NCBI RefSeq assembly: GCF_000186365.1
Contig: NC_014961.1
Span: forward strand, 806,001 to 870,000
Direction: 5' to 3'
Length of the DNA: 64,000 nucleotides
Source: Desulfurococcus mucosus DSM 2162
Lineage (GTDB): Archaea > Thermoproteota > Thermoprotei_A > Sulfolobales > Desulfurococcaceae
Shown here: piece after piece, positions 21,707-60,226 of the stretch
Position numbering within the stretch: the first letter of the stretch is position 1
Layout: each line of letters opens with the position of its first letter
Program-made: the position numbers and the translations under genes
Notes under the pieces: generated by a model
Told to the model about the DNA's origin: nothing
The model's input: only the letters and a program-made list of their open reading frames with translations
Databases searched by the model: none

Positions 21707-21888
21707 ATTACAGCAACCTAGACACCACCGGGCGTGCAGTACCATCCCATGTCCTGCGACCCCGCGTCGGAGGCGATGCGGCCACTGGTGAAGACGTAGG
21801 CGGAGAGGAGGTCGCTGGAGGCGAGCCTAAATTAAAATTACCCGGAATAAATAAGAATAAACCTCTAGGGGTAAACGGGTCAGCCCAT
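21707..21888. other. Intergenic region with probable degraded ORF tail
   Basis: Between the ACT and amidotransferase genes, 21720-21830 is GC-rich and coding-like: it reads MRPLVKT-stop-AERRSLEAS, suggesting the broken C-terminus of a transposase-type gene. The amidotransferase promoter follows, with an AT-rich ATAAATAAGAATAAACC at 21848-21864. No intact gene is seen here. Confidence 0.35.
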
Positions 21889-22698: not shown

Positions 22699-23085
22699 GG
22701 CTTAGGCACGATGCAGAAATCAACAATACATACTAGCCGCAACCACTGCTTCCCCTACAGTACTTTTATCCCTGGAGGAACATTCCATGCGTATCAGGGT
22801 TTCCTCAAGGGGCTTCCCCGCCCAGAGATCACGGGCGATTGATGTGGAGTCATGGGGATCCTACACCTTCATTTTCTTCCATCACGGTTTCCGGCGACTC
22901 ACCGTATAATGCCTGATCCCCCTGAACACTGCTGGAACACCTTTTCATGACACCTTGAATCGTTCAGCTGAAAGCCCCGGCTTTTAGGGCGGGAGGGAGA
23001 TCCTCGAGACCACTGTAGCAGGGACTAGGGGTCCTTGAAAAAGAGTTGGCGGGTAACGACCTAAGGACATGCACCCTGGTTTCCT
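22699..23085. other. Intergenic region with IS200/IS605-like end motif
   Basis: No gene is visible. Around 22975-23000 the sequence GAAAGCCCCGGCTTTTAGGG followed by GCGGGAGGGAGATCC has the hairpin-plus-GGAGG layout seen at archaeal IS200/IS605 right ends. The rest shows nothing recognisable. Confidence 0.35.
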
Positions 23086-40382: not shown

Positions 40383-40812
40383 AGGTTTACACCTAAAATA
40401 ATCCTTAAGACTCTACACTAATATAGTTTTTCAAGATACTGGGGCTGAATATTTAAATCTGACCATCTACTCAGGCATCAGTCCTCATCTCTTCCATCTT
40501 TCTCAATGCATACCCATATCCAGAATACCGTTTGCCCTCTCACCCACGCACCACATGGTATCGGCACAGGTTCACTGGTGGTTGCCAAGCCTGTTAACGG
40601 GGGCCTCATCCACTATCTAACCTCCTCTCGTCCTAAAGGGGGTTTCCGTTTAGGGGGTTCACTGGTCCCCACATTTGTTCGGTTCACATCTGTGAGCAAC
40701 TGGCCCAAGCTGTGTGAGACATCACCTACACTACGACTCAGAGATTCCTGAGAGACATAGATTTAACTGAAGTCTGTAAGCCTCTCCAGTAGGCTTCAAA
40801 CCAGAGGTGGCT
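40383..40812. other. Intergenic region with degraded TnpB-like 3' end
   Basis: No intact gene. On the minus strand from about 40755 to 40617 a broken frame reads TDVNRTNVGTSEPPKRKPPLGREEV. It resembles the TGVNPNxCRGTxxPPKQ tail of archaeal IS200/IS605 TnpB proteins, followed by the hairpin/GGAGG end motif (40630-40662). The rest (40383-40540) holds the promoter of the upstream gene. Confidence 0.5.
40617..40662 (-). repeat. Inverted repeat left arm (IS200/IS605-like end)
   Basis: The sequence AACGGAAACCCCCTTTAGG, followed by ACGAGAGGAGGT on the minus strand, matches 41338-41370 on the plus strand. The two arms are inverted and flank the small HTH gene. Confidence 0.65.
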
Positions 40813-46124: not shown

Positions 46125-46342
46125 AGCAGTCGTTCACTGGTCGGCCATCTAGACTGACCTCCCCGCCCTAAAAAGAGGTTTCCTGTTTAGGGGGTCCACG
46201 GGTTCCCCTGCATCTATTCGGGTTTACACCCGTCATCTACGGGGCTTTCGGTTGTAAAGGCATGCGTGACGCAAGGCTATGTATATGCAATGGATTCTGC
46301 ACCGGGGCTTTCCCATGCTACGAGTCGTTGTTTCGCTGAAGC
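46125..46342. other. Degraded TnpB-like 3' end
   Basis: On the minus strand, 46262-46150 reads PKAP-stop-MTGVNPNRCRGTRGPPKQE before a TAG. This is the tail typical of IS200/IS605 TnpB proteins, followed by the GGGCGGGGAGGTC end motif. Upstream coding sequence is absent. No intact gene lies here. Confidence 0.6.
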
Positions 46343-46537
46343 GGTTGCCCGTGCCCATTAGCACGGGCTTCTCCCTCCGATACCTCATCTACCAGTACCT
46401 CATTGGGGGCTGCATCGGCGGGCACCACTGGGCCCACCCCACGGGGAATGATGCGGGAGAGCCCCTCCCATTCACCGCCACGCCTCCAGTGCTTCCAGCA
46501 GCTAAACCAGCCTAAAACCTTCACCTAGCGAACAGTC
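46343..46537. repeat. Dispersed ~200 bp repeat with terminal hairpin, copy 2
   Basis: Inverted copy of 15787-15985. It has the same hairpin (GCCCGTGC, loop, GCACGGGC) at its left end, and the same plus-strand frame ending GEPLPFTATPPVLPAAKPA. It lies next to a TnpB-like tail, which supports a mobile-element origin. Confidence 0.75.
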
Positions 46538-51666: not shown

Positions 51667-52374
51667 CTACTGTTTCCTCCGGTATGTTGCGTATATCATT
51701 GCATGGTCTCTATCATAGGGTTCCAGGTGCACGACGTCAACTATTTCAAAGCCCCTCTGCTTAAGCGTCTCTATCTCCCTCCGATATATCTCGCTGGGCT
51801 CCTTAGTTACATCGATGCTTCTGGCCTTCACCGCTAACAACAAGTAGCCGCCGTCCTTCAGGAATAGCGAGGCGTTGTCCGCCACGATGGATGCCTGCTC
51901 GGGCTGTGCTACGTCAGCGTAGAGCCCGTCAACGGTTTCCACCACGTGCCTGTATTCATGTGGCTTCCTGGCATCGCCCAGTATCGGGTATATGTTCCTC
52001 CTCACCTCGGCAACTAGCACCAGCTCCCTCATCACTCTCGGCGCGAACTCGACACCGTAGATCCTGCCCTTTAATCCAATTATGTCTGAGATATGGCTAG
52101 CCGTGGTGCCAGAGGCTATGCCAAGGTAGAGTATCCTATGGCCCTCCCTTATCGGCTGGTCGCTGAGGCCGTTGGCTAACGCGCCTGCAAGCTTACTCCT
52201 GTACAGGTTCCACTCCCTGTACTCCACGTCTCCAACCCTGTAGAGTTTCTCGCCGTAGACCCTGCGTCCCGGAACCAGGTTCCGTGTTGCAAGCTTCAGG
52301 CTTCCGTCCTCCAGCTCCACAACGTATACGCCGTAGTATTTCTCATGTGGTTTAACGGATAATGGTTGACTCAT
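51667..52374 (-). CDS. flpA: Fibrillarin-like rRNA/tRNA 2'-O-methyltransferase
   Basis: 235 residues. [20 protein letters not shown] near residue 50, the SAM site [19 protein letters not shown] near 82, [22 protein letters not shown] and [17 protein letters not shown] are all fibrillarin signatures. It is the methylase of box C/D guide RNPs with Nop5 and L7Ae. It lies 5 bases after nop5, so the two are one operon. Confidence 0.96.
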
Positions 52375-52379
52375 CTAGC

Positions 52380-53600
52380 TCACCTCCCACCCTTCTTCTT
52401 AAACTTGTGCGGGGGCTTCGGTTTCTTTTCCTCCTCTTTCCTGGGCGGCGGCTTGGGGTAGAGTTTCTTTATTTCCTCAACTCTCTCCTCGAATTCTTTC
52501 ACAAGCTTATCTCCCACAAGCCTACCGCTGAAGTAGTCTACTTTAGCCGCTATAGAGAGCTTTGCTGCGAGAGCCCTCGCTATCTTCCCTCTCTGCCATC
52601 TAGGACTCTTATGTATGTGGGGATGCTGGAAGATCACTCCGTGCTTCGGCGGCTTCCCCCCGGTTCTAAGCGCCCTGAACAACGCCTTCTCCGCGCCTAG
52701 AACCTGGATCGTGCTAGCTGGCAGTTTGGCAAGCTTCTCAAGCCCCCCAGCGAGGCTTAACAGTCTCGCACCGAGCTTCGGGCCTACTAGGGCCGCTATG
52801 TTGGGGGCAACCTCCTTCATCACGGCGTCAATGTACTCGTCAAGGGTGTCGCGTAACCTGTAGAGATCCAGTATTATTCCAGCCAGCACCTTTATATAGT
52901 TCATGTCGAAGTCGCTTAAGTCGGCACCTATGCTGCTCCTAGCTGCGTCAGCGAGTTTCTCAGCCTTCTCCCTACCGTACCCTAGCTTCACCAGGTTCTC
53001 AACAGTATAGTTGGAGCGATCCCCTAGCTCATATACCAGCTTAGCGTACTCGGGGTGCTCCTTGACGAGCTCGTCTAGCTCGGGGAAGTGTATACTATAC
53101 CATTCCCTCAGCCTTGCAACATAGAGGTTTATCGTTTTATCTATGTCGTCTATGGCTCTTATAGCTTGGACGGCCAATAGATCCCTCTTCTGAGCCTCCC
53201 TTCTCAGCTTCCTCCTCGTATACTCCAGCATTATCTCGTGTAGCTTATCGAAGAACTTCTCAGGTGAGTCAACGAATCCAACCTTCACTGCGAGCTCCTG
53301 TATACTGTCCCTTGCCTTAACGAATACAGCACCACCGGGGACGACTTCAGGCGTTAACCCATGTGCCGAAGCTATCTTGGCTGTCGCAAGGGATTCAACA
53401 ACTACGTTGGCTACGCCTAGCTCTTTCAGTTTACCTAGTACCTCAGAGTGCTGTGGCGTAGACTCCCCCCGCTCTATGTTCAGCAGGTATTCCACCGTGT
53501 CGTCAACGCTCTCAGGAGACCTGGCGTAGACTAGTATAGAGCCTTCATCGTTTAAAGCGATCACTCCTATCACGCTTTCAACAATATATGCCTTACCCAT
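52380..53600 (-). CDS. nop5: Nop5 (Nop56/58-like) box C/D RNP core protein
   Basis: About 406 residues. N-terminal fibrillarin-binding domain (1-130), a coiled coil (about 140-215), then the Nop domain with IAALVGPKLGARLLSLAGGLEKLAKLPASTIQVLGAEKALFRAL near 280-330 and HPHIHKSPRWQRGKIARALAAK. The C-terminus is a Lys/Pro-rich tail (KLYPKPPPRKEEEKKPKPPHKFKKKGGR). It scaffolds fibrillarin on guide RNA bound by L7Ae. A ~160-base structured leader precedes it. ATG 53600 is preferred over GTG 53603. Confidence 0.96.
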   Translation of the reverse strand: MGKAYIVESVIGVIALNDEGSILVYARSPESVDDTVEYLLNIERGESTPQHSEVLGKLKELGVANVVVESLATAKIASAHGLTPEVVPGGAVFVKARDSIQELAVKVGFVDSPEKFFDKLHEIMLEYTRRKLRREAQKRDLLAVQAIRAIDDIDKTINLYVARLREWYSIHFPELDELVKEHPEYAKLVYELGDRSNYTVENLVKLGYGREKAEKLADAARSSIGADLSDFDMNYIKVLAGIILDLYRLRDTLDEYIDAVMKEVAPNIAALVGPKLGARLLSLAGGLEKLAKLPASTIQVLGAEKALFRALRTGGKPPKHGVIFQHPHIHKSPRWQRGKIARALAAKLSIAAKVDYFSGRLVGDKLVKEFEERVEEIKKLYPKPPPRKEEEKKPKPPHKFKKKGGR

Positions 53601-53603
53601 CAC

Positions 53604-53762
53604 CTAACACCCAATCCAACTAACTCCAGGGTCGGCCAACCCTCCCCTTGCCCCGAGGCATGGTTTAACCCATGCTGTCTCGGAGCCTGCCGTCTGCCCT
53701 CCACGGCCTCCGCCTCACCTATGGTTCACCGGCGGCTGTCGAGCCCGACGGCGCAGGCTCCC
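53604..53762 (-). ncRNA. Structured RNA with kink-turn, leader of nop5-flpA or guide RNA
   Basis: Just below a TATA box (53777-53785) the minus strand forms a long hairpin (53682-53761). GGAGCCT pairs with AGGCTCC and GCCGTC with GACGGC around a two-base bulge. At its top a canonical kink-turn is present: stem CCGCC/GGCGG, three-base bulge GGU, tandem GA opposite GA, then ACC/GGU closing an AUA loop (53710-53735). A second hairpin (GCATGG/CCATGC inside CCGAG/CTCGG, 53653-53683) follows. Kink-turns bind L7Ae, the partner of Nop5 and fibrillarin. It could be an autoregulatory leader, or a separate H/ACA-type guide RNA with ACA at 53676-53678. Confidence 0.6.
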
Positions 53763-53776
53763 ATCAATGCTCAAGG

Positions 53777-53785
53777 CTTTAAAAA
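53777..53785 (-). promoter_or_regulatory. TATA element of the nop5-flpA transcript
   Basis: Minus-strand TTTTTAAAG about 20-25 bases before the first base of the long hairpin. No second TATA is visible between it and nop5, so one transcript probably carries the structured leader plus nop5-flpA. Confidence 0.6.
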
Positions 53786-53900
53786 TGTCTCCGACACCTA
53801 TAAACTTTTCCAGTAGCATTTAAACCGGTTGGCTGCCCTGCTAGTTGTAGACGCGTGTAGGGTCAGCCGTTATTTGAGCTGGTTGCCGGCCGGTGGAACC

Positions 53901-59814: not shown

Positions 59815-60226
59815 CCACTGTTTCCCTTCGCCCTGGATATTCACCCTCATCTCCTTCATGTTTACTCATATCCAGGGGCTTCCATCACCGCATAGTACGG
59901 GCGCCCCAAGCCCTTGAAACCCATCCAGCAACCATACAAAATAGAGGCAACCCGTAAACCAAGCTGCATGGAGAAAGATGACCCTTCACCAGTGCCACCG
60001 CTGGAAAGCTTAAATGTTGCGTGAGGAAATACCTATGGTAGTAGGCATGGATGATGTGAATCCCCGGTGCGAGCATCAGGCAATGAGCTCTATACGAGCG
60101 TGCTGACACCTATCTCCCGTAGACCTCTGCTTTATAGCCAGATGCCACTTATAGATATACTCTGGGACCTGGAAGATGAGGATCCTTGGCCGCACGGATA
60201 CCCTGAGCAAGGGTAGGTGATGAGAA
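59815..60226. other. Intergenic region without a clear gene
   Basis: About 410 bases. A TATA-like GCTTAAATG near 60008-60016 precedes GGATGATGTG and, 50 bases on, CTGA (about 60101-60104), a second weak C/D-like candidate. Otherwise no frame or structure stands out. Confidence 0.4.

Follow-up and report, generated by a model that had tools for sequence, protein, structure and literature searches.

A solo TnpB omega-RNA with a kink-turn upstream of nop5-fibrillarin in Desulfurococcus mucosus: a candidate mRNA leader of transposon origin

The nop5-fibrillarin locus and its upstream kink-turn

The D. mucosus genome consists of 1,314,639 bases in one contig (C1), from which we analysed a stretch of 64,000 nucleotides, referred to below as the window. 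On the minus strand of the window lie nop5 (52380-53603; Pfam PF01798, 9e-75, and PF21572, 1e-33), whose likely start is the ATG at 53600, and the next gene of the operon, encoding fibrillarin (51667-52374; PF01269, 1.7e-104), and these matches bear out the gene identities given in an initial annotation of the DNA. The same strand carries a BRE/TATA-like sequence, GGAAAAGTTTATA at 53799-53811, in which a TTTATA is accompanied by an A-rich, BRE-like GGAAAAG, and which we take from its sequence to be a probable promoter. A second TATA-like stretch, TTTTTAAAG, is found at 53785-53777. Transcription probably starts at about 53775, the point at which homology to the other copies of the RNA family described below begins. 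The sequence between the RNA element and nop5 contains no T-run resembling a terminator, and the transcript would probably read through into nop5. The kink-turn lies in what is very probably the leader of nop5-fibrillarin, and if transcription does start at about 53775, the kink-turn would fall within the first ~125 nt of the nop5 mRNA.

The kink-turn occupies 53710-53735 on the minus strand and has homologous counterparts in related genomes. Its C-stem is formed by CCGCC (53735-53731) and GGCGG (53714-53710), followed by a GGU bulge (53730-53728), a GA (53727-53726) opposite a second GA (53716-53715), and a tip in which ACC and GGU close an AUA loop (53725-53717). A strict scan, demanding five Watson-Crick pairs in the C-stem, a three-nucleotide bulge, GA/GA and three further Watson-Crick pairs, returned this kink-turn alone from the two strands of the window, and of 5000 dinucleotide-shuffled leaders 2 contained a match. 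The exact kink-turn reported earlier is present as described. The long hairpin proposed for the leader likewise proved to be the minimum-energy fold (-82.6 kcal/mol over 191 nt, z = -2.9, with 4 of 200 shuffles as good), and an ACA does lie 3 nt past its lower stem. The leader also contains a perfect palindromic hairpin, GCATGGGTTAAACCATGC, at 53675-53658 (minus strand), 3' of the element.

An archaeal TnpB omega-RNA family with a conserved fold

The element upstream of nop5, which runs on the minus strand from 53765 to 53690 (GATGGGAG...GCAGACGG), is a complete omega-RNA scaffold, from the first hairpin to the end that precedes the guide, and belongs to type A of an archaeal family of TnpB omega-RNAs. 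A covariance model built without it recovers it over model positions 1-142 of 142 with 54 bits and E = 2.8e-15, covariance-model E-values being rough. By blastn, 53765-53723 matches multicopy elements of many relatives at ~80-89% identity, and wherever the frame is open these matches are the 3' end of tnpB, encoding the C-terminus DGSPVPLGSTAAHEP. In the relatives the end of tnpB is followed by ...GGCGGAAGUCCC-hairpin-GGGACAAACGG and this in turn by sequence unique to each copy, which is how an omega-RNA and its guide are arranged. The proteins encoded by type A carry the TnpB/Cas12f TNB domain. A pattern scan produced 120 further stretches, nearly all from Desulfurococcales and their neighbours, and 116 distinct copies were parsed, with at least one 3' end (L035) misplaced in the parsing. 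Rfam contained nothing relevant at gathering or loose thresholds, the gathering score returning only a tRNA in the 64-kb window, and the copies in relatives had no Rfam match either. No tnpB adjoins the copy in the window, which has a divergent S30e-like gene upstream and nop5 downstream. The earlier suggestion of a guide RNA joined to the operon thus holds in the sense of descent from the guide RNA of a transposon nuclease, but not in the sense of a guide for rRNA modification.

The family fold comprises hairpin 1, a pseudoknot, the kink-turn with its C-stem and outer stem, and hairpin 3. On a covariation set of 16 copies, from which the window copy was excluded, 96% of the positions pair and 11 pairs are doubly changed; none of 500 shuffles did as well, and versions of the fold slid along the alignment fail. 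Hairpin 1 (53741-53760, minus strand; GAGCC 53760-53756 with GGCUC 53745-53741) is 100% paired in the 16 relatives and intact in the window copy. The 5' strand of the pseudoknot (53747-53751), situated in the loop of hairpin 1, covaries with its 3' strand (53690-53694), which supplies the last bases before the guide: type A has mostly CCGUU/AACGG, type B has GCGUU/AACGC, and the window copy has CCGUC/GACGG. The C-stem occurs as CCGCC/GGCGG, CCACC/GGUGG, GGGCC/GGCCC, GCACC/GGUGC and others. A shuffle test of this stem is weak within type A alone because the stem varies little there; what supports it is type B, together with the comparison between the types. The canonical GA/GA is found in 55 of 64 type A copies, and in 35 of 41 type A solo copies, which are free of coding constraint. 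Type B shows it in only 10 of 51 copies, although fold and bulge are common to both types, and we are less sure that type B forms a true kink-turn.

Type B is a sister family (L070, L149, L163 and 51 copies) with the stem GGGCC-CAU-GN/NA-GGCCC; the one TnpB-like protein of this type that was searched, that of L070, had no Pfam match. A different tnpB family, represented by L043, L044, L045 and L046 and present in the D. mucosus genome itself, has 3' ends of the form CC-CGU-GA-ACCGCCC...GGGCGGG-GA-GG-AGGUCAG, which resembles a kink-turn whose C-stem is very short.

The omega-RNAs or reRNAs of IS200/IS605-type elements known from ISDra2, Sulfolobus islandicus and Halobacterium (sotRNAs) occupy the same position, at and past the tnpB stop and just before a variable guide, and the Halobacterium sotRNAs share with the present family a pseudoknot between a hairpin loop and the 3' end (PMC12558985). 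The window copy differs from these known RNAs in being solo, in having lost its frame and in having a self-paired guide, and its archaeal family differs in the conserved kink-turn stem. The RAGATH-18-derived RNAs of bacterial IS607 TnpB are also guide RNAs with a possible kink-turn (PMC11061315), but they are bacterial and apparently of another sequence and fold.

Copies of the family are abundant. There are ~20 in the D. mucosus genome, scoring from 147 to below 20 bits and spanning all states of decay; some have a common promoter-like upstream unit, many are fragments, and they stand against a single cognate tnpB, which has an open frame (C1:1098202-1099407). Among 99 related genomes, 62 have copies, with up to at least 32 per genome, and solo copies make up about two thirds of the distinct ones. 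A TATA-like box ~80 nt upstream is frequent among type A solos and missing from the copies with an open frame. The intergenic stretches of the window hold further family copies, mostly degraded, at 22762-22883 (minus) and 40528-40610 (minus), and weak matches at 21814-21878 (plus), 59824-59886 (minus) and 46341-46438 (minus).

The window copy, its guide and its possible role as a leader

The window copy lacks one base in hairpin 1 relative to the other copies, a deletion that breaks the tnpB frame, so that the TnpB C-terminus is no longer encoded. Its bulge, CAU elsewhere, changed to GGU once coding had been lost, while GA/GA and both stems were kept. In the kink-turn stem and in hairpin 3 (GCC/GGC, 53696-53707, minus strand, placed by alignment to the covariance model) the loops have been shortened while the stems still pair. 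Every helix of the family is thus retained, and the pseudoknot is doubly changed.

The guide, CAGGCTCCGAGACAGCATGG, lies at 53670-53689 on the minus strand. Its first eight bases, CAGGCUCC, are complementary to GGAGCCUG of the scaffold (53761-53754), a pairing which together with CCGUC/GACGG builds the long lower stem of the hairpin. None of 106 other copies has such an 8-nt pairing, one relative reaching 7 nt. The long hairpin is favoured by 27 kcal/mol over the omega conformer, the latter being scored without its pseudoknot and GA pairs; the guide is therefore probably sequestered, and its guide function has probably been lost. The genome contains no second full match to the guide beyond chance expectation, and a search with the pooled guides returned the copies themselves and matches at chance level only. 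One candidate target, in a small gene at C1:917950, has 13 identical bases followed by three mismatches and was read as chance. A 16-base match to the guide occurs in 10 viral contigs, and the phage records contained none.

The interpretation that we favour, and regard as somewhat probable, is that a solo omega-RNA has become the 5' leader of the nop5-fibrillarin mRNA, with a kink-turn open to feedback by L7Ae. An omega-RNA without tnpB would have come to sit upstream of nop5 and downstream of a promoter of its own; transcription from about 53775 through nop5 and fibrillarin would make it the 5' leader of the mRNA; the guide would be locked with its own scaffold in the long hairpin and its former role lost; and L7Ae could bind the canonical kink-turn at the hairpin tip and so control the operon by feedback. 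Binding by L7Ae, with feedback on nop5, is plausible because both have been published for other archaea: the nop5 mRNA of S. acidocaldarius has within its first 125 nt a kink-turn to which L7Ae binds, L7Ae represses its own mRNA via a kink-turn in the leader, and a kink-turn has been reported for Thermococcus nop5-fibrillarin (PMC5539422). The nop5-fibrillarin mRNAs of S. acidocaldarius and T. kodakarensis (Daume 2017, PMC5539422) have a kink-turn near the 5' end, as the D. mucosus mRNA would; the analogy is one of function, since the D. mucosus kink-turn is not homologous to theirs, derives from a transposon guide RNA and lies far upstream of the start codon. Since it lies ~110 nt from the nop5 start, masking of the SD, the mechanism known for l7ae, is not directly applicable. 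The leader interpretation is weakened by its reliance on a single copy in one species, there being no orthologous leader in which selection at this site could be seen, and by a genome so littered with decaying copies that the position and survival of this one could be due to chance.

The main rival is that the element is a neutral fossil: a solo omega-RNA in decay, placed upstream of nop5 by chance and doing nothing there, an explanation that we consider possible but less likely than the leader. It accounts for most of the facts, and draws support from the ~20 copies in the genome, many of them truncated, from the further family fragments in the window, and from the absence of the element from all 69 other nop5 leaders. 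It accounts less well for a copy in which all helices are intact and the pseudoknot has changed on both strands, though this is the evidence of one copy. Nor does it readily explain why this copy has the one kink-turn in the window that passes the strict scan, or why its loops have been shortened and its stems spared.

One could also speculate that the element still works as a guide RNA, in trans, for the cognate TnpB. The scaffold is complete, one cognate tnpB retains an open frame, relatives have many solo copies, those of type A often with the TATA-like box upstream, and SisTnpB7 accepts a guide RNA made at another locus (PMC11043419). However, the pairing of the first eight guide bases with the scaffold, which sets this copy apart from the 106 others, and the lack of a further guide match in the genome above chance make this unlikely.

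The binding of nop5 mRNA by L7Ae in S. acidocaldarius could instead suggest an ancestral regulatory element conserved in nop5 leaders across the order. The covariance model of the omega-RNA family found a homologous element in none of the 69 related nop5 leaders, which refutes this reading as far as homology is concerned. Elsewhere in the family, the two remaining genomes of the genus included, nop5 is separated from the divergent upstream gene by a short gap that lacks the hairpin. A loose scan gave kink-turns in 31 of 70 nop5 leaders, against 23-35 in shuffles, so that generic kink-turns close to nop5 starts are no more frequent than in shuffled sequence and were set aside as candidates. The kink-turn belongs instead to a dispersed TnpB omega-RNA family, and conservation across the order appears very improbable. 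Finally, an H/ACA pseudouridylation guide RNA, a reading raised earlier for the ACA 3 nt past the lower stem and compatible with a kink-turn in an upper stem, can be dismissed almost entirely, since the ACA falls where the family has its variable guide, since the ACA and the base of the upper stem are ~31 nt apart rather than 14-16 nt, and since the homologues adjoin tnpB.

Kink-turns and solo guide RNAs in the wider family

The D. mucosus element is a specific candidate for a guide RNA of a transposon that has become an mRNA leader. Covariation shows that a kink-turn, to which an abundant host protein binds, is part of this family of archaeal TnpB guide RNAs. A broader proposal, which we put forward as a speculation and consider doubtful as a whole, is that the TnpB guide RNAs of Desulfurococcales recruit L7Ae as a third partner, that dozens of solo guide-RNA genes with promoters of their own coexist with few TnpBs, and that one of these was exapted as an L7Ae-responsive leader of nop5-fibrillarin, which would tie a transposon RNA to the control of the box C/D machinery. 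The presence of L7Ae in archaeal TnpB complexes and the role of the many solo guide RNAs are directly testable now. In the open-access literature searched we found no report that joins TnpB guide RNAs with L7Ae, one paper mentioning the two separately (PMC12817955); the lack of a report there on kink-turns in archaeal omega-RNAs is weak evidence that these are new.

Several solo copies elsewhere in the D. mucosus genome are well kept, namely those at C1:899520-899655 (minus), 967077-967212 (minus), 509433-509568 (plus) and 292171-292285 (plus). The first two have a common promoter-like unit around an upstream TTTATA box, and the copy at 967 kb lies, as judged by eye, directly upstream of an apparent MATE-family coding sequence. 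Guide RNAs without an adjacent nuclease gene are known as the standalone, trans-acting omega-RNAs of Ktedonobacter, which belong to IscB rather than TnpB. In the relatives, solo omega-RNAs form two groups, one comprising L053, L074, L075, L091, L122 and L167 and the other L051, L063, L095, L112 and L116. Several members lie in one genome, and those of a group have 100 nt or more of common upstream sequence with a TATA-like box while their guides differ, a pattern suggestive of families of guide-RNA genes.
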